Source: Daedaleopsis sinensis
Taxonomy: Eukaryota; Basidiomycota; Agaricomycetes; Polyporales; Polyporaceae
DNA: 64,000 nt
Direction: 5' to 3'
Assembly (NCBI GenBank): GCA_033807695.1
Contig: CM066303.1
Coordinates: 4,030,001 to 4,094,000, forward strand
In this document: positions 46,437-64,000 of the stretch, piece by piece
Layout of the letters: each line of letters opens with the position of its first letter
How positions within the stretch are numbered: the stretch's first letter is position 1
The notes under the pieces: generated by a model
What the model was told of the DNA's origin: nothing
What the model saw: the letters and a program-made list of their open reading frames with translations, nothing else
Database searches by the model: none
Translations under genes and position numbers: made by a program

Positions 46437-47343
46437 TGATGAGCCTCAGGACCAGCTAGGCCCCGGAAACACCACGCAGCCCATCACTATTCGCGCCCGT
46501 CAGTCAATTCACGCAGTATGAAGACGAGCGGCTTCACAAGGAAGGCGAGCGACTACCGAAGGAGCGAGTACGGAGACATGCCATTCCAAGGGTCGAAGGA
46601 GCCGATGCCGAGCTGCCGGCGGCTGACTGAGGTCGCCAGAGCTCTAGCCAGGACAGAGGAGGCGATCGATCGAGGGTCTGGTCTAGGCGACCGCCACGGA
46701 GTCCAGCAATTGGTACGAAGGTCGTCGGAAGAGGCACGGAAGACAAGGGAGTGAGGGGGACGGCCTTCCGAGGCCTATGAAGACGAGCGGATGGACGTCA
46801 GACGCGATCACGTGGTGACGCGCCGCAAGACTAAGCGCTCTCGTGACCGCGGATGCAAGTCGAGCGGCGACGTGATAGGCTCGGTGCAAACACCTACCTA
46901 ACCACCGGAGTGCGCCGTAGGGGTTCAGGAGAGGAGGATCGCGACGTGAGCGTGGGAGGAGCAGAGTTTCCTATGATTGGACGATTGGTATGATAGTTGT
47001 AGTTTATTTGGCGACGATTTGTACAGTATATAAGCCAGCGGGATTGCAGCCCAGCAAAGCAGCGCAGTAGCTCCAGAGATCGAGTCCGAGTCCAAGAATC
47101 ATCTAGTCGACACTCAATTGAAGACCGTCTGTCTTCAAACCTCCTCTTGCAGACTAGCCTCACCCACGGAAGTTGCTTGACTTCCATCTGAAGTTGCTCA
47201 ACTTCCTTGTCTATCGTCGACGGGCTACGTGAAGAAGAGCGACTACACCGGGAACCTGTCCTCCACCTCGCACCCTACTAGGTAGCTGATCTCGTGCTCG
47301 TTTGGGTGTGTGTTTCGCCCAGCGACCCAGAGTTACCCCATCA
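46437..47343 (+). repeat. 5' LTR
   Basis: 907 bp, beginning TG and ending CA. It matches 58222-59128 base for base wherever I compared, including all embedded frames. A TATATAAG box at 47027-47034 is the probable promoter core. Confidence 0.92.
47027..47034 (+). promoter_or_regulatory. LTR promoter TATA box
   Basis: TATATAAG within the 5' LTR; the same box is at 58812-58819 in the 3' LTR. Element transcription should start some 30 bp downstream. Confidence 0.6.
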
Positions 47344-47346
47344 TTC

Positions 47347-47364
47347 TGGAGCCCACCGCGAGGG
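47347..47364 (+). other. Candidate primer binding site
   Basis: TGGAGCCCACCGCGAGGG starts 3 nt after the LTR end. It has the TGG expected to pair with a tRNA 3' CCA. The matching tRNA was not identified. Confidence 0.4.
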
Positions 47365-47777
47365 GTACAAGAACAGTCTCCACCGGTTCCGGCTCAAGAA
47401 TCCCACGTTTGCGGCCAACGCGGAGCGAACGTATCCGTCGCCTCCATCGACAAACCGAACAGGCTTTAGAGGAAATCGAAGCAGAAGACCCCGAGAGAGC
47501 AGAGCAGCTCACTACCGTGATCGAGAACAACTTCGCGGTTTTCGCAGACTCTCCGCTTACCGAACTAGAGGACGCTTCCGAAGACGAGCAGGAGGACATT
47601 GAAGTTCCGGACCATCCGTTCCTGACTTCAGAATCAATTAGTAACCCAAGACCTACGCTATCACATACCGCAGGGGCCTTCAACCTACCTAGGAACCCCC
47701 TTCCTTCCCTGCTAGCCTACGCCGCTCAAATATTACCTACGGCTCTACCACCCGTAGTACCACCTACAATCCATTCG

Positions 47778-50192
47778 ATGGCTAGCGCAGATCTATCGAA
47801 ATTACCGTTGCGTACGGAAAGGAGTGCGCCTCAATTCGATGAGGAATCTAAGGACACCGTCGAGCGGTACTTTGACGACCTTGCCCGACTTCTGAAGAAG
47901 CATAGCATCACTGATGAACAAGCTTGCAAGGCGGCGGCGGTCAACTACATACCAGCGGGAGTCGCCAAGCGATGGAAGTCCCTGCCGACGTTCTCGGACA
48001 CCCAGAAGACGTATGAAGAATTCAAGACGGAGGTTCTGTCCTTCTACCTCGGGACGGATGCCCAGTACACCTGGACACTGCGAGAATACAATGAAGTCAT
48101 CGGGGAAGCCGTACGAACGGGGATATCCAGCCTCGAAACCTACATGAAGTTCTACAGCAAATTCTATCCCATCTACCGGTACTTGCATGCGAAGACCGAA
48201 CCAGAGCTAACGGAGCGCGACGCGTCGACAGCCTTGCTACGGCTAGTTCCTATGCAGTACACAATGGCGGTATCCGCGCGGTTAGCACACCAGGTGCCTG
48301 CAAAACACAAAGAAGAAGCTTACACGGTCGCGCAAGTTCATGAAGCAATTTCCTATTGTCTGGCGGACGGAGGCCCGTTCGGCGGGATCGGAAGTTGGTC
48401 AACTGCGACGTCCGGTAACCTCGCTCGAGTCAATCCTCCGGCTCCAGCCATGGCCTCCACGGTTACGGTGAAAACCGAGCCGGATCTATCGGCCTTCAAG
48501 CGGGAGATGATCTCCATGATGAGTTCGACCATGCGCGACTTCGTGAGCCAGCAGAGGATGCAAGCCACGCAACCGCCGCAACAAGGGGAACAATACCCTC
48601 CACCACCACAACCTCCCCAGGGAAGGTACCAGCAGCAGCAAGGGGGCCTATACGGACGTAATCCACCCGCTAACGACGAATGCATCTACTGTGGCCTACC
48701 GGGATGTCGGTTGAAGACGTGCCCGAAAGTCGCAGAGGACATGACGGCGGGACTCATCCGGAAGGACGTATACGACAAAATCATCCTACCAGGAGGCGGT
48801 GTGATCCCTCGTAGTCTGCCAGGGAACTGTATGCGCGATAGAGTCAATGCTTGGCACGAAAAGAACCCAAACCAACGAGCGCGAGGAACCATGAGCAACA
48901 TCTATCAGTTCGAGATGCAGGAAGACGAGCGTACCTTGGAAGAGGAGTTAGAAGTCCTCATGCACAAGGCAAACATGGTTAAAGAGCGCATGAACACTCG
49001 CTCGGGACGGCAGGTTTTTGATGGAGTCGAGCTAGAGACGCGGCCTCGACGTATTACGCGCAACTCGGAGAAAGGGAGGGACGACACGCGGGCAGGGACG
49101 CCCGAGCGTGATCAGCCGCCTCACCAGCCGACGAGAGAGAAGGGGAAGGAGAAGGAGAAGCACGTTACCTGGGACACGAGGGCAAAAGAGCCTGAAGAGA
49201 CCTTCCATCCCTATGCGCCGACTGTGGTACCCAGAGGCCAGGAACTGCCGAAGAAGGACGAACCACCGGTCAGAAGGACCGCAGCGATCATCGACCCGAC
49301 TGCGGAAGAAAGAGTCTTCAACCGAAGCTTCGGAGACAGCCAGAGTATCACAGTGTCACCAGCCGAGCTACTCAGTATTTCTCCAGGACTCAGGAAGCGA
49401 GTGCATGAGGCCACAGCTCTCAGGCGAACGCAAGTCAGAGACGAGCAACTGCAGGAAGTGACCAACCGGGAAGGCGAGCGGCCTCGGAACAAGGTACTAG
49501 TGACCGAAGTCGCTGAAGACAAAGACTTCCCGGAAGACAACCTCCAGACAGCAGGAAGTTCATCCTCAGGGACTGGAAGGCCGACGCTTGGATCCTTTGC
49601 ATTCGTAGACCTGGACTATGAAGGCAGCGAGGACGAGGACGAAGAGCCAAAGTCGCACAATGCACCGTATGTAGCTCCGGGACAAGGCTATCCTGCGAGC
49701 AGTCGGCGGAAGTCAACCATCGTAGCCTCGGAATCGGAGAAGCTGAGGTCGCTGTTCACCTGGGTAGCTCGAACGGACACGCCGACAGAGTGTACACTCG
49801 ACGATGGGTCCCAGATAGTCGGTATAAACGACCAAATCGCTTATGCGTTGAAGATCCCCTACGATCCTACCAAGCGAAGGAGGATGATCTGCGCAAATGG
49901 GACGGTCGACATGACACTCGGTCTAGCAAAGAACGTGCCTGTGGAATTAGGTGGCGGGATCGTGGTCTACCTCCAGATGCATGTTGTGAAGGCAGCACCT
50001 TACCAGATCCTCCTAGGAAGGCCGTTCATGACGGTGATGCGTGCGAGGTCGAGCAACTCTATGGATGGCCAATTGTCAATTACCGTCACTTGCCCTAACT
50101 CGAACCGCGAATTGACGCTACCGACCTACGCGCATGGAGACTCTCCGAGTTATGGACTCAGAGTCGAGGGTTTTCGGGCTTCGAGGATCTGA
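47778..50192 (+). CDS. gag: Gag polyprotein with C-terminal retropepsin-like region
   Basis: 804 residues from the first ATG; the same frame is open for a further 156 codons upstream, back into the LTR. The capsid-like region covers about residues 10-200 (RTERSAPQFDEESKDTVERY, AAAVNYIPAGVAKRWKSL). A Gln/Pro-rich linker follows, then a zinc-knuckle variant CIYCGLPGCRLKTC (CX2CX4CX4C, with Cys where His is usual). A charged middle leads to an aspartic-protease-like end with LDDGSQIVGI as candidate active site and ILLGRPFM downstream. It should form the particle, package RNA and process the polyprotein. Its stop overlaps the pol start as TGATG. Confidence 0.85.
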   Translation: MASADLSKLPLRTERSAPQFDEESKDTVERYFDDLARLLKKHSITDEQACKAAAVNYIPAGVAKRWKSLPTFSDTQKTYEEFKTEVLSFYLGTDAQYTWTLREYNEVIGEAVRTGISSLETYMKFYSKFYPIYRYLHAKTEPELTERDASTALLRLVPMQYTMAVSARLAHQVPAKHKEEAYTVAQVHEAISYCLADGGPFGGIGSWSTATSGNLARVNPPAPAMASTVTVKTEPDLSAFKREMISMMSSTMRDFVSQQRMQATQPPQQGEQYPPPPQPPQGRYQQQQGGLYGRNPPANDECIYCGLPGCRLKTCPKVAEDMTAGLIRKDVYDKIILPGGGVIPRSLPGNCMRDRVNAWHEKNPNQRARGTMSNIYQFEMQEDERTLEEELEVLMHKANMVKERMNTRSGRQVFDGVELETRPRRITRNSEKGRDDTRAGTPERDQPPHQPTREKGKEKEKHVTWDTRAKEPEETFHPYAPTVVPRGQELPKKDEPPVRRTAAIIDPTAEERVFNRSFGDSQSITVSPAELLSISPGLRKRVHEATALRRTQVRDEQLQEVTNREGERPRNKVLVTEVAEDKDFPEDNLQTAGSSSSGTGRPTLGSFAFVDLDYEGSEDEDEEPKSHNAPYVAPGQGYPASSRRKSTIVASESEKLRSLFTWVARTDTPTECTLDDGSQIVGINDQIAYALKIPYDPTKRRRMICANGTVDMTLGLAKNVPVELGGGIVVYLQMHVVKAAPYQILLGRPFMTVMRARSSNSMDGQLSITVTCPNSNRELTLPTYAHGDSPSYGLRVEGFRASRI

Positions 50193-53100
50193 TGAACAGT
50201 CAGGGAGAGGTCGCTCTCGTCCTCGACTATGACGCAAGAACGGGTCAAGTTTTCACGACGGCATACAAGGACTTAGAAAACCTAGAAAATTCCACAATTC
50301 AGTCAGCATATCTATCAGCCTGTGACGACTCCGAGACAAAGCAGAAAATCAAAACCATGTTCTCGAAAGTACCGATCCAGGAATCGGAAGGGGATAGAAT
50401 GCGGAGCCGACAACCACATCGCGAAGTCGACCGAGCCCTCTTCCGAGGACGAGCACTCCCAGTATACGCTACGAAAACCAGAGGCAGAAGAGCAGTCAGA
50501 ACCCGGTCTAGGTCCAGCGAAGCAGCAAGAGCGAGCGAGAAAACCGAGCCGAGCGAGCAAGAACAAGAGGCGGAAGGCGAGCAACTTCCAGAAGACGACG
50601 AGCGGCAAGCAGCCACCGAGGACCCCGAGAGCGTACGCAGCTACGTGAAATCGAAGAAGAAGTACAAGCCAGTGGATAAGAAAGTACGACCAGTGATTGG
50701 GGAGCTTCCCAAGCAGTACAGAATTGTACGGGAGATAATCGGCGACCCTCTCGAAGGGATGAAGCCGCTTGACCTCAATCCAAAGCCTTTTGAACCAACT
50801 GGGCGGTACACAGCTGAACGACGCGAGAAGCTCCACAAAGTCAATGCTCACCTATCAGAAGAAGAGCTAGCATTGCTAGACGACATGATGTGCAAACAGG
50901 AGCAGGGATTCGCTTGGGAAGACAGCGAGCGTGGCCACTTCAGGACGGACATGTTCCCACCAGTGAAGTTTGCGGTTGTGCCTCACACTCCGTGGATTGA
51001 AACGAATTTCCCCATTCCACCCGGAACCTACCGACAAATCTGTGAGATCATGAAGAAGAAAATAGAATCAGGCGTATACGAACCCTCAAATGCGTCTTAC
51101 CGATCCAGGTGGTTCTGTGTGCTGAAGAAGGACGGGAGTCTGAGGATCGTCCATAGTCTGGAGCCGCTCAACAGAGTCTCTATTCAACACAGCGGTGTAC
51201 CACCGATACCCGACCACATGGCGGAACGCTTTGCAGGGCGTGCGTGCGGGACGACCTTAGATCTATACGTTGGATACGACGAGAGGATCCTAGACGAAGA
51301 GTCGCGCGACCTCACGACCTTCCAAACGCCTTTCAGAGCCATGCGACTGACGACGCTACCAATGGGATGGACAAATTCAGTACCCATCTTCCATGACGAC
51401 GTGACCTACATATTGCAGCCTGAAATTCCGGATACGACGATTCCCTACATCGACGACGTACCTGTCATTGGACCGGAGTCTTCCTACGAACGGGAAGATG
51501 GTTCTTTCGAGTGTATGAAGGGGAATCCAGGCATCAGGAGGTACATCTGGGAGCACATGCAAGACGTCAACAGGATTGTACAGCGGATGAAACATGCGGG
51601 AGGTACCTTCTCGGGCAGGAAGTTCGTCTGCGCGGCGCGCGACTTCGTAGCGGTGGGACATCGATGCACACCGGAAGGCCGTCTTCCAGAGAGAGGTTGC
51701 GTGGATGCGGTACTCAAATGGGGACCGTGTAAAAATGTTTCCGAAGTACGGTCGTTCCTGGGAACGGTAGGCGTTGGGAGGATCTTCATCAAGAACTTCG
51801 GGAAGAAGGCCGCGCCATTAGTCAAGCTCACGCGGAAGGACGTACCGTTCGAATGGGGAGAGGAACAGGACAAGGCCATGGAGGATCTAAAGACAGCATT
51901 AGTGGAATCCCCGGCCTTGAAGTCGATCAACTACGAGTCGAAGGCCCCGGTAATTCTAGCGGTGGACACCTCTTATATCGCGGTCGGCTACCAGCTGTGT
52001 CAAGAGGATCCGGAAGACCCGCGGAAACGATACTACAACCGCTTTGGATCCATTACCTTGAACGAAAGGGAAGCCAGATTCTCGCAACCGAAGCTCGAGC
52101 TATATGGTCTGTACCGAGCATTGAAGGTGCTCCGCTTTTGGCTGGTCGGTGTACGAAACCTAATAGTAGAAATGGATGCGACATCTACGAAAGCCATGAT
52201 CCAGAATCCGGATGTCGCGCCGAATGCAGTCATGAATAAGTGGATCATTAGCATCAATATGTTTCACTTCGAAATGCGGCACGTACCTGGAATCTCCCAT
52301 GGACCGGACGGTCTCAGCCGACGACCTGCGCAGCCTGAAGACGAACCAGAAGAAGCAGACAACGGAGAATTCGATGACTGGGTGGACAACATGTACGGCT
52401 TTACACACCTCATAAATCCACCTCCACACCTGGGAGACGCTCCTCTACAACACGAGGTTACGCGGAAAACGAGCAACTTCGAGACGGAAGCGATGGGCTT
52501 CAGTGCGCTCATGCAGCAGACAAGCGGGACGGCAGGCAAGCTACCGGACATTCCAGAAATTGACTACGCAATCGTACCGCGCACGGAGGTTGCCCAGAAG
52601 TTTGACCACAGAATAGCGAACGTCTACGAATTTCTGTGCACCAAGAGAAGACCGAAGCTGGTTCAGAAGGAGCTCGATGCGTTCGTCAAATACGCAGGAC
52701 AATTCTTCGTGAAGGATGGCCGACTATGGAAGATAGCGAAGAATGGGAACCACAGGAGAGTACTACCCCCAGAACTACGAGCGAAAGCGTTCGTGAGCAT
52801 GCACGACTTCATAGGACACAGAGGCGTACAGGCGACAATCTCCTTCGTGGCCGAACGGTTCTGGTGGCCAGAAATGAAGGCGGATGTGGCCTGGTATGTG
52901 AGAAGCTGCCACCAATGTCAAATTCGACAAACTACGCGGATCTACATACCACCTTCAGTTTCCTATCCTGCGGCGCCGTTCGTACGAGTTCACGTCGACT
53001 CTATGGACATGCCTGGATCGTACAAGCACTTCTTCCATGCGAGGTGTGCAACCACAAGTTATGCTGAAGGGCGGGCAAGTACAGTCCAAACAGCGAAGGC

Positions 53101-53962
53101 GGTCGGCGACTGGATCTATCAAGACCTGCTGTGCAGATGGGGAGCGCTGTCCGAGATCGTTTCAGACAACGGAAGTCCATGGGTTGCAGCGTTGGAGTAC
53201 CTGGCAAAGCAATACCACGTCAAGCACATACGGATCTCAGGATACAACTCACGAGCGAACGGAATCGTCGAGCGGCCTCATTTCCACGTCCGGGATGCGC
53301 TCTTCAAAGCATGCGAAGGTGATACGACGCAATGGGTGGTGCGGGTATATTCAGTACTCTGGGCGGACCGAATCACAGTACGCAGGAGACTAGGGTGCTC
53401 ACCCTACTACGCGGTAACTGGGACGGATCCAATCCTGCCCATGGACATCACAGAAGCCACGTACCTGCTGCCTATACCGACGAAGCTCGTGTCCACAACG
53501 GAGTTGATCACCAACAGGGCGATGGCCTTGCAGAAAAGACCGGAGGACATAGCGCGGTTGCGGTCAACCGTCTACCGAACACGCGTCCAAGCTGCGGAGC
53601 TATTCGAGAAGGAACACAGCGCAACCATCCGAGACTTCAACTTCCAGCGAGGGAGGCTGGTTCTGATGCGGAACACGGCAATTGAGAAGTCGCTCAACAG
53701 GAAGATGAGACCACGGTACCTAGGCCCTCTAGTAGTGATATCGCGCAACAGAGGCGGCGCGTACATCATTGCAGAACTCGATGGGACCGTCTTCGATCGA
53801 CCCATAGCGGCCTTCAGAATCATCCCCTACCTAGCGCGTGAGGACCCAATCAACTTCAATATTGAGGAACTGGACGCACCACAGAGCCGACTGCAAGAAT
53901 TAGAAAACACAACAGAAAACTACGAAGAGGAAGGATTAGCAGACGACGACGAACACGGCTGA
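50192..53962 (+). CDS. pol: Pol polyprotein: reverse transcriptase, RNase H, integrase
   Basis: 1256 residues in the -1 frame relative to gag. Residues 1-160 are a charged leader. The reverse transcriptase (about 250-450) shows TLDLYVGYDERILDEE and the catalytic YIDDVPVIGP near 416. RNase H (about 585-705) shows VILAVDTSYIAVGYQL, KLELYGLYRAL, EMDATSTKA and a closing DGLSRRP. The integrase has an HX4H...CX2C zinc region (MHDFIGHRG, CHQC) and a DDE triad: D in VDSMDMPG (about 935), D in SDNGSPW (about 991), E in NGIVERPH (about 1026). A GPY/F-like module (RYLGPLVVISRNRGG) follows. No chromodomain is evident. There are no internal stops, so all activities could be present. Start: the ATG overlapping the gag stop. 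Confidence 0.92.
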   Translation: MNSQGEVALVLDYDARTGQVFTTAYKDLENLENSTIQSAYLSACDDSETKQKIKTMFSKVPIQESEGDRMRSRQPHREVDRALFRGRALPVYATKTRGRRAVRTRSRSSEAARASEKTEPSEQEQEAEGEQLPEDDERQAATEDPESVRSYVKSKKKYKPVDKKVRPVIGELPKQYRIVREIIGDPLEGMKPLDLNPKPFEPTGRYTAERREKLHKVNAHLSEEELALLDDMMCKQEQGFAWEDSERGHFRTDMFPPVKFAVVPHTPWIETNFPIPPGTYRQICEIMKKKIESGVYEPSNASYRSRWFCVLKKDGSLRIVHSLEPLNRVSIQHSGVPPIPDHMAERFAGRACGTTLDLYVGYDERILDEESRDLTTFQTPFRAMRLTTLPMGWTNSVPIFHDDVTYILQPEIPDTTIPYIDDVPVIGPESSYEREDGSFECMKGNPGIRRYIWEHMQDVNRIVQRMKHAGGTFSGRKFVCAARDFVAVGHRCTPEGRLPERGCVDAVLKWGPCKNVSEVRSFLGTVGVGRIFIKNFGKKAAPLVKLTRKDVPFEWGEEQDKAMEDLKTALVESPALKSINYESKAPVILAVDTSYIAVGYQLCQEDPEDPRKRYYNRFGSITLNEREARFSQPKLELYGLYRALKVLRFWLVGVRNLIVEMDATSTKAMIQNPDVAPNAVMNKWIISINMFHFEMRHVPGISHGPDGLSRRPAQPEDEPEEADNGEFDDWVDNMYGFTHLINPPPHLGDAPLQHEVTRKTSNFETEAMGFSALMQQTSGTAGKLPDIPEIDYAIVPRTEVAQKFDHRIANVYEFLCTKRRPKLVQKELDAFVKYAGQFFVKDGRLWKIAKNGNHRRVLPPELRAKAFVSMHDFIGHRGVQATISFVAERFWWPEMKADVAWYVRSCHQCQIRQTTRIYIPPSVSYPAAPFVRVHVDSMDMPGSYKHFFHARCATTSYAEGRASTVQTAKAVGDWIYQDLLCRWGALSEIVSDNGSPWVAALEYLAKQYHVKHIRISGYNSRANGIVERPHFHVRDALFKACEGDTTQWVVRVYSVLWADRITVRRRLGCSPYYAVTGTDPILPMDITEATYLLPIPTKLVSTTELITNRAMALQKRPEDIARLRSTVYRTRVQAAELFEKEHSATIRDFNFQRGRLVLMRNTAIEKSLNRKMRPRYLGPLVVISRNRGGAYIIAELDGTVFDRPIAAFRIIPYLAREDPINFNIEELDAPQSRLQELENTTENYEEEGLADDDEHG

Positions 53963-53993
53963 CACTGACGTTGACGAGGACGTCAAATGGAAA

Positions 53994-54007
53994 AAGTGGG
54001 GGGGAGG
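53994..54007 (+). other. Internal polypurine tract (duplicate of the 3' tract)
   Basis: AAGTGGGGGGGAGG lies 31 nt after the pol stop and is identical to the 14 nt that directly abut the 3' LTR (58208-58221). It may be a second plus-strand primer site or the old end of a shorter element. Confidence 0.75.
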
Positions 54008-54412: not shown

Positions 54413-56676
54413 CTACTCGGCGTTGCGAAGAAGCTCGAGGAGATCCTCACGATAGCCATTGGACGCCACCAAGTCCTTGAAGGACCGCACGTCGTCGCAC
54501 CCTTCGATCTTCACGCCAAAATCGAGCTGGGTCTGTCGAGTCTCGCGGCGGGAAAGCTGCCGAATGGACACTAGGTCCTCGACGATGCGCGCGCGTGCGA
54601 GGCTGACCTGCGAGCGAAGATGGTTGACCTTCGCGACGACCTCCGGCGAGAAGCTGACCGGCTCCGGCGACTTGCGCTTGGAAGATGAGGACTTGATCGA
54701 GATCTTGAGGGGCGTCGCCGGTTGGGAAGTCGACTTGGAGGGACTCGGCTTCTCCTTCTTGACGCTGCCAGAAGCGCGAGACGAACGAGGAGGAGGCGTA
54801 GAGTCGTCAGGTTCGGCCTTGCTGTTGCCATAGTCCTCGAGAAGGCGGCCCTTCTCGTCGAGCGACGGATAACGCGTAGGACCCTCCGGGTACGGGTAGA
54901 CGGGGGTGTCCTTCCGGATGGTCTTCGGACGAAGACGCTCCTGGAGCGCGGCCTTGTCGACGGAGAGGAATTTGTGCGAGTTCCTCTCGAACTGGCGGAC
55001 GAAGTCGACGGCGAGAAGACGGTCGGCGGGCGGCAGCTGCGAGGGTTCCCGGAAGGAAAACCCAACGCCGTTGTACATCGCGCCGATGCGGGCGTGCACT
55101 AGAAAGAAGACAAGAAGTCAGCAAGAAGACCAAGAGAAGAAGGGGGAAGGTACTGACCTTTGACCGTCCCCTGGACACTCAGGTGGTCGTACGCGCAAGA
55201 GAAGCTTTTCCCCTTCTTCTTGCAGAAGTTGCAGCGGAACGCGGAAGGGTCCGGACGTCTGCAGGTGACCCCGGCGCGACGGCACTCGTCGCAGTCGCCC
55301 TCGATCTGCACGGCGCTGGACAACTCCACGGAACCTTGGCGAGTGGAAGGAGGCTTCTTGTCGCGCTTCTTGACCCTAGGCGACAACTCGACGACGGGAG
55401 GCGGACGTTTGCGGGGCGAGGTGCGGGACTTCTTCTTAGGAGGCTCCTCCTCCTCGAGTTGGTCGACTTCTTCTTCGCCTTCATCGTCGACCTCGCCCTC
55501 GGCATCGCGGTCGGAATCGTCCTCGGGAGGGGAAACAGCCTTACGCTTTCCCTTGTCGACGGGCTTCTTGGGCGGCTCGCTCTCATCGGTGCTGAAGAAG
55601 AGGGGCGTCTTCTTCCTCTTCAGCGGCAGCTGAGACAGCGGAGGAGGAGGAGGATGGTCAGGCGAGAGGGGGGAGCGTGTGCGGAAACGACGAGGAGAGT
55701 CGCGCTGGGCAGCGTCGGCCAGAGGCTCGTCGTCAGAAGCTTCCTCTTCGGGAACGTACTCGACACCAGTGACCATCGCAGCCAGGAAGGCGTCGCCAGG
55801 AAGCGCATCGGGGTCAGACGAATGCGCGGTCGACGAGGAAGTGGGGCGTGTGACGAGCATCCTCGTGAGACGCTTCTTGTCGAGGACCGGGACGTAACAC
55901 ATGCCGGACAGCAAAGGCAAGAACTGGTCGACGCGAGTGTCGATGGTTTCCCGAGAGGCGCGCATGTCGGGCGGGTAATCGGCGACCTCCATCCAGCGCG
56001 GCTGGATGATCTCGTGGTACCAGTTCACTGCAAGGAGGAGCGGTCTTAGTCAAGCAACAGTGAGGGCGAAGAACGTAAGTACTTACGCTCGAAGAAGCCC
56101 AGCCGAAGGCGGTGAGCCTGGAAGGCGATGTCGATCTCCAGTGGGGACTCCGCTACGGTGCTCGAAACCGCGAACAGCCGCAACCGGCGAGAAGTCAGCG
56201 CGTACGAGCGAAAGAACTCCGAGACCAGGGAGGGCGGCGCGTAAAACTCGAACGTCGGGAGCGCGGCGAGGAGCAGGGGATCCAGGTACCAATTCCACTC
56301 CGGGACGAGACGGTGCTGCGAAAAAGGAATGTGTCAGCAAGGCAAGACTTGGAAGGCCGGGACGGCGTACCAGAGCCATGACGATACGATCAAACATGGC
56401 CTTGAACATGCCATAGGAGAACGTAGCGAGCTGGTCGTCGGTGTACTCTTCCAAGATCGCCCGGAAGTCGCTAATCGTCAGCGGAGCGGCGTCCTGATCG
56501 CGAAGCTCGTCAGGCGTAGTAGGAACGGGCTCCTCACAGCCAAGTCGATCGGATTCACGCGTGAATTGCAACGGGAGCCACTTGAACAGCTCCTTGGGGA
56601 TCGGTCGCCGAGGAGCATCGGAAGACGAGCGAGTGGCGGCGACGTTGGAAGACGAGCGACGGTTGGAAGCGGACAT
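54413..56676 (-). CDS. Antisense cargo gene C: 696-residue protein with Zn2Cys6-type cluster
   Basis: Exons 56676-56371, 56315-56087, 56027-55158 and 55098-54413 have consensus GT-AG borders and sum to 2091 nt, an exactly open frame. The N-terminal third is globular-looking (ELFKWLPLQFTRES, RLVPEWNWYLDPLLL, NWYHEIIQPRWMEVADYPPD). The middle is highly charged, with likely nuclear signals (KRKAVSPP, PPKKKSRTSPRKRP). At about 420-452 six cysteines are spaced CX2CX6CX9CX2CX8C, within the consensus of fungal Zn2Cys6 binuclear clusters. The last 225 residues include a Ser/Lys-rich linker and a helical end. A TTAATAAA box lies 66 bp upstream. A DNA- or RNA-binding role is inferred only from the cysteines and charge. 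The protein is unknown to me. Confidence 0.78.
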
Positions 56677-56741
56677 GGTGGGCGATGGAGGAGCAGACGA
56701 GAGGAGAACGCACGAAGGCGGACAACCAGAAGGTCAAAACG

Positions 56742-56749
56742 TTTATTAA
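56742..56749 (-). promoter_or_regulatory. TATA-like box of antisense gene C
   Basis: TTAATAAA on the minus strand, 66 bp before the ATG of gene C. Confidence 0.4.
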
Positions 56750-56849
56750 GGGCGACAGTCAGAAGAACGTGAAGGGAACCGTGAAGTACAACGTCCAAAT
56801 GCGGTAATCTAAGCGCTCTCCGCGCGACGGCGATCGAGGGCGGCCCCAA

Positions 56850-57504
56850 TCAGTCGCACATCAAAGGAATAGAACCGAAGACTTCATCCTCGTCTGACAG
56901 AGAGGACGGCGACCTTTCCAGCTTCTTGATGGCCGCGCGGAGTGCGGACTGCTCAATACGGACCCCGCGCAGTTCAGCGGCGACCAATTCCAGACGCGCG
57001 AGTACTTCCGAAAAATGAACGCGGTACCGGTCGTCGCGTGCCAGGTCGCGCATGACCTCCAGGAGTTGAAGTTCGTGTTGCAGAGTGGCGTGCACTGAGT
57101 CCAGGAAGTGGAGGCGGTACGGAAGGCGGTGCGTCTGGACCAGGTCGACAAGGAACGCCTCAAGGCCGTTAGAGAAGAAACACTGGTCGATGGCGATGGA
57201 CACGCGGGCAAGTAGGTCGGAAACGTCGACGAGCAGGCCGTCATGCAGCATGCTCCAACCATACTGGGAAGGTGTCAATCAAGCGCGAGAAGCATCAGGC
57301 CGAGAAGCTCACCAAAAGTTGTCCTAAACGGGAAAGCGCGTGTTCATACACAACGCGGGGACAGCCGTGGTCGACGGACACCGTCTCGAAGAACTCGATT
57401 TGCGCAACAATGTGCGCACGAAGCGGGGAGAGGAGTTCAAGGGCCAACTCGCGGTGCGAGCTGACTTGGAGGGCGAGCGTACGCGGGAGGACGGTCGACG
57501 ACAT
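56850..57504 (-). CDS. Antisense cargo gene B: 201-residue helical protein
   Basis: Exons 57504-57313 and 57263-56850, split by a 49-bp intron with a GTGAGC donor and CAG acceptor, join in phase 0 to 201 residues. It begins MSSTVLPRTLALQVSSHREL and continues with amphipathic, Leu-rich helices (LLSPLRAHIVAQIEFFETV, DLLARVSIAIDQCFF, LHFLDSVHATLQHELQLLEV). No motif is recognised and no signal or membrane span is present. It starts 63 bp after the end of gene A and has its own TATAAA box, so it looks separately transcribed. Its size, helix content and single short intron resemble gene A; the two may be distant relatives or partners. Confidence 0.7.
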
Positions 57505-57546
57505 GATGAATGGAAGTTGATGAACTTCGAAGGCAGTTACAGCGGC

Positions 57547-57552
57547 TTTATA
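57547..57552 (-). promoter_or_regulatory. TATA box of antisense gene B
   Basis: TATAAA on the minus strand, 43 bp before the ATG at 57504 and 15 bp past the stop of gene A. Confidence 0.55.
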
Positions 57553-57566
57553 CGACACGCGGCTAC

Positions 57567-58137
57567 TCAAAAGTGGATGTCCTCTCGGAGGCTGGCAAAC
57601 TCCTGATCTATCTCCTCCATTTCCTTTTCGACCTTCCGGATCCGGGCATCAACCAGAATAGACTCCGTGATCAAGGACCCTCCGGCGCGGTTGAGGACGC
57701 GGCGCGCGCAGAGTTGCTTCCGGAGCCGCTGCTGACAGGCAATGCGACGGGCATCGAGATCGGCCCGACGAGCGCACCGACGGGACCGGGCGACAAGCTC
57801 TTGGAAAAGGAAGAGCTGACGGTCAGCCAAGGCAGGCCAGCCCTCGGTGATCGTATTCTCGGTCCGTTTCACGAAGTCCGCGGCAACCTCGCCATCGTCC
57901 CCCAAGGTGATCAAAGTGTCCTGCCATGAAGACAGTCAGCCACGAAGACGAGGGCATACACGCGGAAGGAGGACGACATACCACCAGTTCAGCGATATGG
58001 TCGTAGGAATCGTAGATGATTCCAACGTCCTCTTCAGTACGAGCGGCAGCAAGAGCCTCGAATTCAGAGATCGCGACTTCAAGCTGACGGACAGTCTCCG
58101 TGAGGATGGGGACGTTGAGGAAGATGAAGGCAGACAT
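57567..58137 (-). CDS. Antisense cargo gene A: 169-residue coiled-coil-like protein
   Basis: Exons 58137-57982 and 57920-57567 with clean GTATGT and CAG borders join in phase 0 to 169 residues. The first exon reads MSAFIFLNVPILTETVRQLE and DVGIIYDSYDHIAELVV. The second begins DTLITLGDDGEVAADFVKR and is rich in Arg, Glu and Leu (RQLFLFQELVARSRRCARR, RIRKVEKEMEEIDQEFASL), a likely coiled coil. No known domain is recognised. It is the first gene inside the 3' LTR on the minus strand, its ATG 85 bp from the LTR edge, with its own TATA box. It is therefore transcribed toward pol and against the element transcript. Confidence 0.7.
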
Positions 58138-58172: not shown

Positions 58173-58180
58173 TTTATATA
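58173..58180 (-). promoter_or_regulatory. TATA box of antisense gene A
   Basis: TATATAAA on the minus strand, 36 bp before the ATG at 58137 and outside the LTR. Confidence 0.6.
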
Positions 58181-58207
58181 CGCGCAAACCGAGGACGGTT
58201 CGAATGC

Positions 58208-58221
58208 AAGTGGGGGGGAGG
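58208..58221 (+). other. 3' polypurine tract
   Basis: AAGTGGGGGGGAGG directly abuts the 3' LTR, the expected plus-strand primer for reverse transcription. Confidence 0.85.
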
Positions 58222-59128
58222 TGATGAGCCTCAGGACCAGCTAGGCCCCGGAAACACCACGCAGCCCATCACTATTCGCGCCCGTCAGTCAATTCACGCA
58301 GTATGAAGACGAGCGGCTTCACAAGGAAGGCGAGCGACTACCGAAGGAGCGAGTACGGAGACATGCCATTCCAAGGGTCGAAGGAGCCGATGCCGAGCTG
58401 CCGGCGGCTGACTGAGGTCGCCAGAGCTCTAGCCAGGACAGAGGAGGCGATCGATCGAGGGTCTGGTCTAGGCGACCGCCACGGAGTCCAGCAATTGGTA
58501 CGAAGGTCGTCGGAAGAGGCACGGAAGACAAGGGAGTGAGGGGGACGGCCTTCCGAGGCCTATGAAGACGAGCGGATGGACGTCAGACGCGATCACGTGG
58601 TGACGCGCCGCAAGACTAAGCGCTCTCGTGACCGCGGATGCAAGTCGAGCGGCGACGTGATAGGCTCGGTGCAAACACCTACCTAACCACCGGAGTGCGC
58701 CGTAGGGGTTCAGGAGAGGAGGATCGCGACGTGAGCGTGGGAGGAGCAGAGTTTCCTATGATTGGACGATTGGTATGATAGTTGTAGTTTATTTGGCGAC
58801 GATTTGTACAGTATATAAGCCAGCGGGATTGCAGCCCAGCAAAGCAGCGCAGTAGCTCCAGAGATCGAGTCCGAGTCCAAGAATCATCTAGTCGACACTC
58901 AATTGAAGACCGTCTGTCTTCAAACCTCCTCTTGCAGACTAGCCTCACCCACGGAAGTTGCTTGACTTCCATCTGAAGTTGCTCAACTTCCTTGTCTATC
59001 GTCGACGGGCTACGTGAAGAAGAGCGACTACACCGGGAACCTGTCCTCCACCTCGCACCCTACTAGGTAGCTGATCTCGTGCTCGTTTGGGTGTGTGTTT
59101 CGCCCAGCGACCCAGAGTTACCCCATCA
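58222..59128 (+). repeat. 3' LTR
   Basis: 907 bp, the same as 46437-47343. It is followed by CCGC, which also precedes the 5' LTR. Confidence 0.92.
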
Positions 59129-59700: not shown

Positions 59701-61136
59701 TGCATTTGCTTACTTTCTGCGAGAGGTGGGCCGGGGAGGGGCAGGTGCGGGGGAACGCGCAGGGAGCGTTGCACAGAGCAGGAACGTCGTCGAGCACCGC
59801 TAGCGCACATAATCAGAGAGAGCTTGTAGGAGAGGATGCATGCAGCGGCGGCGGCGGACACAACTGCAGTGCAAGTAGAGAGGACGAGCTGAGGACGAGC
59901 CTCGGCAAGCTCGGATCAGAGCGCCCGGGTCTAGACGCGCGTCACATACCGCAAGCGCCGAACCGATGGGACCAGGGCGCCTGCAGACACTGTGTTCGTC
60001 TCTCTTCATGATCTTTGTACCTCCTAAGGCTGCTGCTGTCTACTCGTGTCTACCGCTCCGTTCCTCATGACCGCTTGCTCTAGTATGGTTCTTACTGCGC
60101 TCACTCTCGCCCCGGCCTTTTGCGAGTGTGCACTCCATTCCCTCGACGCGTGTCCTCAGTGTAACTATCTCTATGCGCTTTGCTGCCCGGCCTCCCTGAA
60201 CCTCCTTCTAGACTACTGGAGCCAATTGACGGCTGTTTGTTCTCGTACACCAGGTAAGTGTCATGTCTGCACCCTCCAGATTCTCCCAACACTAGTGTGT
60301 GTACCCTGTGTCAAATACTCAGCTCACTCACTGACACCGTGAATTTGTAGCCTGCCCGGGATAATGCGTGTCGAGGAACTCCATCGGGTACTGCCGCGTG
60401 TACCAGCATTTTCGCAGAAGACAAGTCGGGACGTACTGGACTAGTCTCGGGAGCTGCGGCCAACACCTATGTCAATTCGCAAGAGTTATCCAATTCATGG
60501 TGCTTCAATCATGTAGAAGTTTCATCATTGCGTTGGATACTTTACGTTCGATTAGCAGCAATGGGAATGCCTGCGCACTCAATCTGTCATTTGACGGCGC
60601 TCTCACTCAGCCGCTCTGCCCGCGGCCTCACAGTGTTACACTTGGTCGGGTGCACAACTTTACATTCTACTACGGCTCCCTTCTCATCGTTTGATTCCAA
60701 AAGTAGGAATTGCGTCACGGTCATTGGCTTATTCTATATCGCGGCTAGGGTGAGAGCAGCGAGTTGTGCAAAATGTTCTTCTAGCCCGTGCTCTGTACGA
60801 ACAATGATTCTAAACGAGCCACGGCGTCACATATCGTATACTACTGCCTCGTTGTAAAGGCCGCGAGGCGTTAATACCCCGGTATTAACGCCTAGTGGCT
60901 GTGCTGGCGTCTCGAACCATGGACTACTGCTTATATCATCACTGTGGCTGAAGTACTGTACAGTTATCATGTAGTGTATCCGCGTATCAGGGGAAGAGAG
61001 AGGACAACTCTCTCTTCACCCCCCGTTGTACACGTCTCCTGAATATACAGGCTTGGACGAGTCACGACTAGGGCGAGGAGTAGACTCTGTGCATTTACAT
61101 CTTTTTTGACTCGCCTCGTACTCAATTCTAGGCGAC
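59701..61136. other. Intergenic region and probable 5' end of the next retroelement
   Basis: No host gene is recognised. It contains the 28-bp palindrome at 60866-60893 and a GAAGAGAG/CTCTCTTC hairpin near 61003-61025. Because gag of the next element starts at 61137, the right part is probably its 5' LTR and leader. The LTR edges cannot be set because the second copy lies outside the window. Confidence 0.45.
60866..60893. repeat. 28-bp near-perfect palindrome
   Basis: AGGCGTTAATACC and its exact reverse complement GGTATTAACGCCT are separated only by CC. Confidence 0.8.
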
Positions 61137-64000
61137 ATGTCTTTCTCAGGCGACGCTTCGAATTCCCACCAGGCCGGCAATCCAAACGCGGATCCCACGA
61201 CGAGGACCAATCCCTCGTCGCGAAGCACTCCGGCCGGAAGCTTCGCCACCGCCCCGACAGCTCCCCGGGCCCCGTACGTAACAGACGTACCGGACCAGGA
61301 ACTGGGCCGGGGCGACAACTCAACATCAACGATTTCGCCGACTCCCCGAGGAGGACGGACCACACCGCTGATCCGAGGCGCCCCCGGTGAGTCCCCCGAA
61401 ATCCATCAACCAAATCCAACCATATCCTCGGCCGCGTTCGCGGTCAGTGCGTCGCAGATGGAAGCGGCGGCAGCGTCGAGTGATCGACGCCCCGCCCATT
61501 CCCCTGCGACGACCGAGGAAAGGCAGAACCGGGTGGCAGAAGTTGTCACGCAAAGCCAATTAGCTTTGCGTGAACAAATGTATCTGCGCACCCAACAGCT
61601 TACCGAGCATGGCCACGAGTTAAATCAACTTCAAGCCCGCTCCACGGTAGTGATCCAGGAGTACGCCGATGAGGTACGAGCCGCACACGCCCGTACCAAT
61701 CGCGCACTCCAGGACAACCAAAACATGATCCGCGATGTCGAGCAGACCATCGCGGAGGCGCGACTGCTACTAGGGCTACCTCCACTTTCGGAGATAGCCC
61801 AGCGCCGCAACATGGAGTTCAAGCCAGGCCCCCCAACTAACAATACGGAGCAAGACTCGGCGTCGCACGCGGTAGCCGAGTCTACGAGCTCGCACGCGCG
61901 ACAGTCTGGCGAGAGTCTTGACGAATACGACGCGCGAATCACGCGCGCCGTACGACATCAAGGTCGCAACCGGCAGGCCATCCAGCCGAATGTGGACGAG
62001 GTGCTCCATGCCGCGAACACATCGATACCGTCCGAGAACGAATCGTCGCGCTCAGTAGTCCCGCCGCCCGCGTTTGACGAGTCGAACGTAGATAGATATG
62101 CGTATCTACGTCCCACGTACAATGATATATTAAACGAGCAGCACGACGCTGCACGTATAATGCGCGACGCGCCTAACGCGCCGCGCGGCGAGAACGCGCA
62201 TAGGGGGGAACAAAATAATGTCAGGTTTGTTGCCCCCTCCGGCGAGACAGACAACTCGCGGCAGCCGGCGGGGTCCATCTCGGATGCACTCCGCCCAGGA
62301 GCTGCGAGGTATGGCAATGTCACAATATACACGGCGGGACAACCGATGAGCGTGCTCCAATCGACTGCCCCGCGCGCGGACACCACACCTACGGCGAATC
62401 CAAGAGCGCATCTCGACGCGCTCTTGGAGCAGCTTGTCAATAACATCAGACACAAAGTAGGCAAGAAACTGGTCATCCCGGAAGGGATGAAGCATCCAAA
62501 AATTGAGGTACCATCTAAATATGATGGTGCTAACAACCACCAAGTATTTTATACTTGGTTGGATGGAGTACTGGATTGGATGCGAGCATACAATGTCTGC
62601 GGCCCGGACGCGGACGGATATCGACTGATATACTTGCGCCAGCATCTGAAAGGAGATGCTGACGACTGGTATGCTCAGGAGATAGACCATCCCGACAACT
62701 CGCGCACGCCATCGTTCGAGGAGGCAGTATGCCTCCTGCACGCAAGGTTCGTGCACTCGAGCACGGCTGCTCGCGCGACGGAGGAGTTCATAAAGTGCGC
62801 ATATCGCTCCCAGAATGGAGTGGAGCGATATGCAGCGGACTTACGCCGCCGCGCGCGCGAGATGATCGAGCATCCAACGGAATATGAAATGAAACGGAAG
62901 CTATTCAACGGGCTGCCTGATAACATCCGGCGTAATCTCAGCATTAATCGAGGGATTACTGCTGAGTATAATCGTTGGGATACAATCGTGGAGAATGCTC
63001 GTCAACTCGAGGAGGCATATGCGGGCGCGGACGCGATTGGTCATCACAACGCACCCACATATGTCCGCCCGACGACGAGCGCGAACCAGACAATCCAGCA
63101 CCGTCGAGACCGCGAAACGGGACGCAATCGGCACTCCCGCGAGCGACCGCGATCGCAATCGCGCGACCGTGGCCGTCGCGAGGAACCACGCGAACCGAGC
63201 TCGCGCACACCGACTGCAAAGACACCTTACCGTCCTCCTACCCCCGGAGCAAAACCGCGTGATAACGCGTGTTTCGCCTGTGGCCAAGTGGGGCATTTCC
63301 GCGGTGACCCGTCATGCCCAAAAGCATCGCAGGGACCCGCGAATGCCCGTCCTCGACCCCGTTTCCACTCGCAACGAGTAGAGGACGGCGAGGAATCCGA
63401 ACTGGGACCCGGCCCCGAGCAATGGGGCGGATCCCAGTACGAGAGTGATCATGGCTCACAGGGCGAGCCAGAGGAGGAGGAAAACGGAGAGGACGATGCA
63501 AGCTCGGAAGTAGTACGGGCGCAATCAATGCGAATCATTGATTGCGACTCGGAAACCGAGCCAGAAGAACTGTACGTCCGTGTTTGCGCAATGCGTACGG
63601 AGCCCGATGCAAAGGAGCGTGTGTATGCCATGAAGGCACTCACGCCCCCGCAGGCCCCGAGAGAGCATTCGGCAACAGTACGGCGTAGGTCTACCACACC
63701 GCTCATGGTACAACCCAACCGAAGCGCGAAAGAGACGGCGACGTTGTGCGCACTAGTCGACGTGAACGGGATCATGGCGTACACCCTGTTTGATACAGGG
63801 AGTACGACTGATTCGATCACACCGGAGTTTGCACATATATGCCGTGCTCCGAAAATAATACTGGAGCAACAAGTCACTCTACAACTTGGATGCTCCGGTA
63901 GCCGATCGAAGATCAGCTATGGCACTAGAATACCGGTAAAGCTGGGGCCAGTGGACGATATCGTATACTTCGACCAAGTTAACCTTGATCGATACGACTG
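61137..64000 (+). CDS. gag: Gag-protease of a second Ty3-like retroelement (3' partial)
   Basis: An open frame of about 954 codons from the ATG at 61137 to the window edge, with no stop seen. A long Ser/Pro/Thr-rich N-terminus contains a coiled coil (about 150-215; QLTEHGHELNQLQARS). The retrotransposon Gag capsid domain follows at about 455-620 (KIEVPSKYDGANNHQVFYTW, LKGDADDWYAQEI, RLFNGLP-like KLFNGLPDNIRR). An Arg/Ser-rich stretch comes next, then a zinc knuckle CFACGQVGHFRGDPSC (about 705; CX2CX4HX6C, two residues longer than usual before the last Cys). An acidic region leads to a retropepsin active site LFDTGSTTDSI near residue 884. RT and integrase must lie beyond the window. The product is unlike the Gag at 47778, so this is a separate family. 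Confidence 0.85.
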   Translation, partial: MSFSGDASNSHQAGNPNADPTTRTNPSSRSTPAGSFATAPTAPRAPYVTDVPDQELGRGDNSTSTISPTPRGGRTTPLIRGAPGESPEIHQPNPTISSAAFAVSASQMEAAAASSDRRPAHSPATTEERQNRVAEVVTQSQLALREQMYLRTQQLTEHGHELNQLQARSTVVIQEYADEVRAAHARTNRALQDNQNMIRDVEQTIAEARLLLGLPPLSEIAQRRNMEFKPGPPTNNTEQDSASHAVAESTSSHARQSGESLDEYDARITRAVRHQGRNRQAIQPNVDEVLHAANTSIPSENESSRSVVPPPAFDESNVDRYAYLRPTYNDILNEQHDAARIMRDAPNAPRGENAHRGEQNNVRFVAPSGETDNSRQPAGSISDALRPGAARYGNVTIYTAGQPMSVLQSTAPRADTTPTANPRAHLDALLEQLVNNIRHKVGKKLVIPEGMKHPKIEVPSKYDGANNHQVFYTWLDGVLDWMRAYNVCGPDADGYRLIYLRQHLKGDADDWYAQEIDHPDNSRTPSFEEAVCLLHARFVHSSTAARATEEFIKCAYRSQNGVERYAADLRRRAREMIEHPTEYEMKRKLFNGLPDNIRRNLSINRGITAEYNRWDTIVENARQLEEAYAGADAIGHHNAPTYVRPTTSANQTIQHRRDRETGRNRHSRERPRSQSRDRGRREEPREPSSRTPTAKTPYRPPTPGAKPRDNACFACGQVGHFRGDPSCPKASQGPANARPRPRFHSQRVEDGEESELGPGPEQWGGSQYESDHGSQGEPEEEENGEDDASSEVVRAQSMRIIDCDSETEPEELYVRVCAMRTEPDAKERVYAMKALTPPQAPREHSATVRRRSTTPLMVQPNRSAKETATLCALVDVNGIMAYTLFDTGSTTDSITPEFAHICRAPKIILEQQVTLQLGCSGSRSKISYGTRIPVKLGPVDDIVYFDQVNLDRYD
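61137..64000 (+). mobile_element. Second Ty3-like element, truncated by the window end
   Basis: Identified from its gag-protease frame only. The 5' LTR must lie left of 61137; the sequence TGGACGAGTCACGA near 61053, just after ATATACAGGCT, could be its primer binding site, but this is a guess. Confidence 0.6.

Follow-up and report, generated by a model that had tools for sequence, protein, structure and literature searches.

What are three intron-bearing genes doing inside a retrotransposon, on the strand opposite to its own genes? A 64,000-nucleotide stretch of contig CM066303.1 (assembly GCA_033807695.1, positions 4,030,001 to 4,094,000; hereafter the window) raises this question. An earlier reading made from the letters of the window (the sequence-only reading) had described a long terminal repeat (LTR) element with three minus-strand genes of 169, 201 and 696 residues, all with GT-AG introns and with TATA-like boxes 36-66 bp upstream. 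Our gene models, here called A, B and C, reproduce these lengths exactly, their coordinates place them antisense to gag-pol between the pol stop codon (53960-53962) and the 3' LTR (58222), and the measured positions of the TATA-like motifs are close to those described (Table 1). All five introns (one in A, one in B and three in C) are GT..AG, and their excision leaves open frames. Purifying selection keeps the antisense genes intact, and they are passed on together with the element; the module that they form is bracketed by two inverted-repeat/polypurine cassettes, a finding beyond the claims of the sequence-only reading.

The element itself is a Ty3/gypsy-type retrotransposon. Its pol frame has Pfam matches to RVT_1, RT_RNaseH and Integrase_H2C2, giving the Ty3/gypsy order of reverse transcriptase (RT), RNase H and integrase, and its LTRs begin and end in TG...CA; the gag-asp protease match in the gag-protease frame is weak and falls under the Pfam cut-off. 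The 4-bp sequence CCGC at both flanks of this single element is a possible target duplication, and Ty3/gypsy (Metaviridae) target duplications are about 5 bp. Pfam gave no chromodomain match after the integrase in the window pol, which sets the element apart from chromoviruses.

The gene C stretch matches at least 34 places in the 51.6-Mb genome, window included, and we compared the 3' part of the other 33 copies of this family (fam1) with the window. Gene A is intact in 32 of these copies, B in 28, C in 30 and all three in 27. Where a gene is broken, the damage is a deletion, an insertion, a rearrangement or, once, a changed splice donor (L024); a lone in-frame stop breaks no gene in any of the 33. 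The introns are equally well kept: among 170 intron places (five in each of 34 copies), 164 are full-length, 162 of them with GT..AG, and the six that fall short are all in rearranged copies (L015, L037 and L041). Two fam1 pol copies at C6:4147569 and C6:4153987 have shorter open frames, and none of the module matches listed for their strand lies at the expected distance; these copies may have lost the module or be nested.

Selection was measured in 29 of the 34 copies (L013, L015, L021, L037 and L041 were dropped as rearranged), with variants counted as sites rather than independent events, a null built from the observed mutation types and a one-sided binomial test. In gene A, replacement variants number 7 (22.5 expected) and silent ones 29 (13.5 expected), a ratio of nonsynonymous to synonymous change (dN/dS) of 0.145 (p = 1.6e-7). 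Gene C has 105 and 167 (188.3 and 83.7 expected; dN/dS 0.28, p = 2.5e-25) and gene B 27 and 25 (34.8 and 17.2 expected; dN/dS 0.535, p = 0.018). Summed over the three genes, no stop-creating variant was observed and 8.7 were expected. As controls, shifted frames and two of the three antisense frames gave ratios above 1; the third antisense frame gave low ratios (A 0.157, B 0.641, C 0.399) because its third positions mirror the coding ones. LTR variability (410 of 907 sites) was not used because the LTR of L027 is truncated (51% identity, 735 columns), and this copy likewise distorts the variant densities of the outer polypurine tract and of the region upstream of gene A. Both checks proposed by the sequence-only reading, stop codons in sibling copies and Ka/Ks, thus came out on the side of maintained genes, all three ratios lying below 1, with p of 0.018 only for B.

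The same module recurs in related elements. Among the 96 matches listed for an RT query of the same genome, fam1 accounts for 34 loci at 95-100% identity, fam2 for 6 at 73%, fam3 for 3 at 69-70%, fam4 for 7 at 68-69% and fam5 for 3 at 66-68%, fam3 being told from fam4 by the A and C matches of its loci; the remainder comprises a broken locus on C9, a single locus at 42% and others at 21-29%. Elements of fam4 (L042) and fam3 (L043) carry antisense C, B and A in identical order and orientation between pol and the 3' LTR. The pol/RT of the module-bearing sister families is 62-73% identical to that of the window, and the module proteins of fam1 are 25-32% identical to theirs with intron places shared (fam1 versus fam4: pol 65%, A 32%, B 25%, C 30%). 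The intron places of A, B and C intron 1 match across fam1, fam3 and fam4, all in phase 0.

Constraint extends between these families. For fam3 versus fam4, where synonymous divergence (dS) is near 1, dN/dS is 0.12 for A, 0.145 for B, 0.40 for C and 0.047 for pol; gene B, the weakest case of selection within fam1, is yet strongly constrained here. The values for fam1 versus fam4 (A 0.59, B 0.38, C 0.71) carry little weight because dS is 1.3-2.4, near saturation. Four further copies (L053 and L054 of fam4, L055 and L056 of fam3) gave 11 usable within-family pairwise ratios of 0.09-0.40, barring one considered below, and their frames are open save C of L056, whose pieces lie about 3.7 kb apart where the sequence examined is incomplete. 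Chance open reading frames were rejected on the selection, the intact copies and the sister families.

In fam2 the module, genes and tracts were read from L044, the sole copy read, with splice sites chosen by hand. This copy has two antisense genes, which profiles match to B (1.5e-8) and C (2e-11), ahead of all 400 shuffled decoys. The first gene has a weak match to the A profile as well (0.0066; 0.17 for the best decoy), and its intron lies, by eye, at the B intron place; with these profiles no separate gene A was found in L044. In fam5 (L045, the one copy in which the junction was read), pol is followed by a polypurine tract and the LTR, with no module, and the spacing of the LTR pairs is 7,670 bp in one element, 7,673 bp in another and 10,965 bp in a third. 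The 42% relative (L046) has no match to A, B or C. The RT tree, whose outgroup branch is very long, places module-less fam5 beside fam2 (support 82/90); a loss in fam5 and one gain elsewhere fit it equally. Three fam2 RT copies (C4:1834378, 1850387 and 1866396) have equal scores and an exact 16,009-bp spacing, like a tandem array with shared LTRs, and an inverted polypurine/LTR junction of a fam5-like element is visible by eye downstream of the fam2 element (L044 8130-8180).

Table 1. Features of the retrotransposon and its antisense module, in window coordinates
Feature	Position	Strand	Details
Gene A	57567..58137	-	169 aa, 2 exons: 58137-57982 + 57920-57567
Gene A intron	57921..57981	-	61 nt, phase 0; place common to fam3, fam4
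Gene A TATATA	58175..58180	-	38-43 bp upstream of ATG; outside LTR
Gene B	56850..57504	-	201 aa, 2 exons: 57504-57313 + 57263-56850
Gene B intron	57264..57312	-	49 nt, phase 0; place common to fam3, fam4, by eye fam2
Gene B TATAAA	57547..57552	-	43-48 bp upstream of ATG
Gene C	54413..56676	-	696 aa, 4 exons: 56676-56371, 56315-56087, 56027-55158, 55098-54413
Gene C intron 1	56316..56370	-	55 nt, phase 0; place common to fam3, fam4
Gene C intron 2	56028..56086	-	59 nt; absent from fam3, fam4
Gene C intron 3	55099..55157	-	59 nt; absent from fam3, fam4
Gene C TATA-like TTAATAAA	56742..56749	-	66-73 bp upstream of ATG
5' LTR	46437..47343	+	907 bp, TGATG...CATCA; 100% identical to 58222-59128
gag-protease open frame	47310..50192	+	from the open reading frame list; listed start is a GTG inside the LTR end
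pol open frame	50192..53962	+	RT, RNase H, integrase; stop 53960-53962
Inverted repeat (possible stem-loop) before inner tract	53970..53987	+	TTGACG-AGGA-CGTCAA
Inner polypurine tract (PPT1)	53994..54007	+	AAGTGGGGGGGAGG; exact repeat of 58208-58221
Inverted repeat (possible stem-loop) before 3' tract	58185..58202	+	AACCG-AGGA-CGGTT
3' polypurine tract (PPT2)	58208..58221	+	abuts 3' LTR
3' LTR	58222..59128	+	identical to 5' LTR

The sequence-only reading had held that introns facing against the element survive retrotransposition, and they are indeed retained across copies and in the four module-bearing families. Introns are not recognised in antisense orientation; replication via the sense genomic RNA would copy those of A, B and C unchanged, because they are not splice sites in that RNA. 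Over the gene models of the window and L044, intron lengths are 47-67 nt. Introns 2 and 3 of gene C in the window, and introns 2 and 3 of gene C in L044, are apparently lineage-specific within a retroelement gene, and such introns are natural examples of introns gained or lost in RNA-passaged sequence.

These results bear directly on two other explanations for the module. Antisense transcription might itself be the function, through double-stranded RNA or transcriptional interference, with the proteins incidental; the genes are convergent with pol, and parts of PMC7264820 discuss such roles for other elements. With intact frames in 27 of 33 copies, dN/dS below 1 and introns at shared places despite the low protein identity between families, the coding constraint already makes this explanation very unlikely. 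The module could also consist of captured host genes that still serve the host (service to the host was one of the roles suggested by the sequence-only reading), and its introns and promoter motifs do resemble those of ordinary nuclear genes. Two weak matches lie outside the listed element loci, one to A at C8:558302-558613 (28%, E = 1.3e-4) and one to C at C10:3223568-3224020 (28%, E = 0.016, one stop), at loci not themselves read, and scoring of gene C homologs covered 64 of 107 candidates. The strong genome matches sit at element loci, however, and the module occupies the identical place in four element families; we found no support for service to the host and consider it highly improbable. 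An apparent degenerate A/B remnant of an otherwise unseen family (50-62% identity) lies at C8:2882119-2882388.

The products themselves give a few leads. Gene C encodes a Zn2Cys6-like motif of six cysteines at residues 424-456, invariant in the three families aligned (fam1, fam3 and fam4), with the spacing C-x2-C-x6-C-x9-C-x2-C-x8-C, which we take to be the rule of the Gal4-type Zn2Cys6 family; the spacing in fam2 differs. Several lysine/arginine clusters and a conserved region C-terminal of the cysteines accompany it. The earlier description of a Zn2Cys6-type protein holds for the cysteines and their spacing; as a family assignment it is weaker than stated, with no Pfam match of gene C to Zn_clus (PF00172) at E 1 or better. 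Structure prediction, a check also named earlier, was informative for gene A: AlphaFold2 modelled its exon 2 from a single sequence as two long helices (mean predicted local distance difference test, pLDDT, 84.9). Foldseek matched this model to no viral model at E 0.001, a search of viral contigs gave no match, and gene C has no match in NCBIfam, a prokaryote library. Pfam hits to IcmW on two of three B proteins (best E 0.021) and to DUF7623, M and COX7C (E 0.19 or worse) were taken as chance, and A and B were rejected as tandem duplicates (hhalign probability 0.3%), despite a phase-0 intron at a similar place in both.

In the leading reading, A, B and C are accessory genes of the Ty3/gypsy-type element whose products act as nuclear regulators of its own transcription or replication. 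We hold this at about even confidence; regulation of the element was also among the roles that the sequence-only reading had suggested. Each gene has a TATA-like motif of its own, seen in sequence alone as a candidate antisense promoter, so the proteins could be made while the 5' LTR is silent. Gene C, with its six cysteines and lysine/arginine clusters, would bind DNA, plausibly at the LTR or the module promoters, and A, by analogy also B, would be helical partner proteins. Alternatively, the products might serve the particle or the integration complex in a structural or targeting role, for example as envelope-like or gag-like proteins or integration-site tethers. Passages of PMC7264820 place env-like genes after pol, and the two helices of A exon 2 would suit such a role; A, B and C contain no membrane-type hydrophobic segment (highest mean Kyte-Doolittle value over 19 residues, 1.24) and no family match, however, and antisense expression would uncouple the products from gag, which leaves this idea improbable.

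The strongest rival holds that the products counter host silencing (RNA interference, heterochromatin or DNA methylation), acting from private promoters while the LTR is silenced. A, B and C diverge fast relative to pol and, over shorter distances, are under purifying selection, gene C encodes a motif that resembles a DNA-binding one, and the TATA motifs lie outside the LTR, all as this rival would have it. Set against these are the lack of a known-family match and the fact that self-regulatory accessory proteins are also expected to diverge fast, and we judge it unlikely. Regulation of the element by its own module remains our preferred reading, and several results count against it. Antisense transcription and splicing of the three genes are predicted from the gene models. 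Module identity of 25-32% beside 65% for pol marks fast evolution, which suits an arms-race role as well as self-regulation, and A of L042 versus L054 gave the one high within-family dN/dS, 1.1, from two changes. Since fam5 (at least 3 RT loci) has no module, the module is not needed for transposition generally. Pfam gave no trustworthy match for A, B or C, and the PDB, searched by sequence with one exon of C and with profiles of A and of C, gave none; without such matches, DNA binding by gene C rests on the cysteine pattern, and the AlphaFold model of that cysteine stretch is poor (pLDDT 58), with no confident fold.

What brackets the module is as regular as the genes inside it. Polypurine tract (PPT) 1, which starts 31 nt past the pol stop, is exact in all 34 fam1 copies, and PPT2 is exact in 31 of 34, the misses (L015, L027 and L037) having that end lost or rearranged. 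All four module-bearing families carry an exact tract repeat on both sides of the module (fam1 14 bp, fam4 18, fam3 15, fam2 12), constant within one element and different among fam1, fam2 and the fam3/fam4 pair. Only 2 of 2,000 random pairs of window stretches of fam1 sizes shared at least 14 bp, a threshold above the 12 bp of fam2; draws less than 1 kb apart were skipped. In fam5 there is a single tract with an inverted repeat, before the LTR.

An inverted repeat with arms of 5-7 bp and a 4-nt loop precedes the tracts, perfect at seven of nine; the inner-tract repeats of fam3 and fam4 have one mismatch in seven. The 18-nt repeat unit ends 18-20 nt before the tract end at all nine sites, and 19 nt before it at seven. 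Loops of AGGA or GGGA with perfect arms occur at 6 of 9 tracts and in 0.1% of 20,000 random window 60-mers. Over eight distinct rows, 91.1% of arm cells pair (58.5% when shuffled), arm covariation is 0.816 (0.196 shuffled; reached by none of 500 shuffles), and all seven arm pairs show two-sided change (reached by one of 500); slid arm pairings drop to 15-45%. Within a single element the two tracts have unlike arms, a difference not expected of a simple sequence-specific protein site. Upstream of the 18-nt unit, the pol stop ends at a distance of 6-8 nt in fam1, fam3 and fam4 and of 132 nt in fam5; in fam2 the stop falls within the unit. Rfam gave no match.

The outer cassette, at the 3' LTR, would be the normal plus-strand primer site, and the inner one is a predicted second, central plus-strand start. 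We speculate, with little confidence, that the cassettes prime plus-strand DNA at both module ends, so that the double strand forms first over the module and 3' LTR, and antisense regulators can be transcribed from unintegrated DNA before integration; if true, this Ty3/gypsy lineage would have a central PPT and a built-in early gene block. The inner tract could instead be a relic of an ancestral 3' end whose priming was lost, since it lies just after the pol stop, where a module-less element could have one, and fam5 has its single tract before the LTR. A relic should drift, however, and this tract shows no change in any of the 34 copies and matches its partner exactly in 4 of 4 families though the tracts differ between families, which makes a relic doubtful. 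Other points caution against reading a primer-site hairpin into the cassettes: the nine sites on which the inverted repeat was counted are those on which inspection had revealed it, and fam3 and fam4 are closely related. When the 60 nt are folded as RNA, the lowest-energy structure includes the stem at only five of nine sites; at the other four, the stem probability is about 0.7 (one site), 0.4 (two sites) and 0.07 (one site). With no G-U pair among them, the arms could equally well form a DNA palindrome or an RNA hairpin.

Elsewhere in the window, a plus-strand gene at 37110-38900 has a DUF6535 domain (E = 2.9e-42), and a plus-strand open frame of 963 codons at 61110-63998 has no Pfam match at E 0.001; just past the window it is followed by a distant gypsy RT match (C4:4095040, 26% identity). 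The DUF6535 gene, together with the intron lengths of 47-67 nt, would point to a basidiomycete host.

Comparison with known systems shows which parts of this arrangement have precedents. Central PPTs of retroviruses and Ty1 resemble the inner cassette in being a second exact primer-site copy inside the element, here in 4 of 4 module-bearing families, whereas the inner cassette follows pol, comes with an inverted repeat and has its priming predicted from sequence; in Ty3, the model of the superfamily, no central PPT has been identified (PMC5371799). The six-cysteine spacing of gene C is that of fungal Zn2Cys6 (Gal4-type) transcription factors; gene C differs from them in lacking a Zn_clus match and in its fam2 spacing, and its zinc and DNA binding are putative. 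The HBZ gene of human T-cell leukemia virus type 1 (HTLV-1) is likewise an antisense, spliced regulatory gene of a retroelement, according to sections of PMC6237760 and PMC5797633. HBZ is a basic leucine zipper (bZIP) protein, and the HTLV antisense promoter lies within the 3' LTR (PMC7264820, in part); here there are three genes, the gene A TATA motif is 41 bp outside the 3' LTR, and A, B and C have no bZIP match. Bdelloid LTR elements have extra open reading frames, with no antisense genes reported in the portions of PMC5408684 consulted.

The closest fungal parallel is Boty of Botrytis cinerea, whose antisense gene brtn was reportedly treated by Zhao et al. in Virology in 2011. Boty is a gypsy element with brtn between pol and the 3' LTR (excerpts of PMC7264820, PMC8365987 and PMC4227169), and thus shares host kingdom, element type and gene position; compared by description, it has one antisense gene and the window element three, and it has a chromodomain (PMC4227169, in part), for which the window element has no match. 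Maize Grande and Retand, like Boty, carry antisense genes between pol and the 3' LTR, according to passages of PMC7264820 and PMC11963269. In the same passages the Grande gene is reportedly transcribed from its own promoter and encodes a nuclear protein, Retand TRP28 is a predicted DNA-binding protein, and the function of antisense genes in plant LTR elements is described as unknown. The module shares with this class of antisense accessory open reading frames (aORF-3R) its antisense position between pol and the 3' LTR and its retention in most copies (27 of 33). It differs from Grande and Retand in having three genes (two in fam2), each intron-bearing, in a likely fungal host, in being bracketed by two inverted-repeat/PPT cassettes and in having no TRP28 (PF04195) match; the word 'intron' occurs in neither PMC7264820 nor PMC11963269.

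Among the matches listed in the literature on antisense genes and polypurine tracts, few of them subscription papers, no title reported several intron-bearing antisense genes grouped in a fungal element, and none a stem-loop/PPT pair around such a module. By the selection tests, the multi-gene version described here encodes constrained proteins. Its introns are natural markers that would make spliced antisense messages easy to score, fam5 is a natural module-less control, and the inverted-repeat/polypurine cassette, which lends itself to testing in vitro, is a candidate for a cis-element of plus-strand priming. Antisense genes of this kind are already known from other elements, and what is new is the multi-intron three-gene module together with its duplicated inverted-repeat/polypurine cassette.

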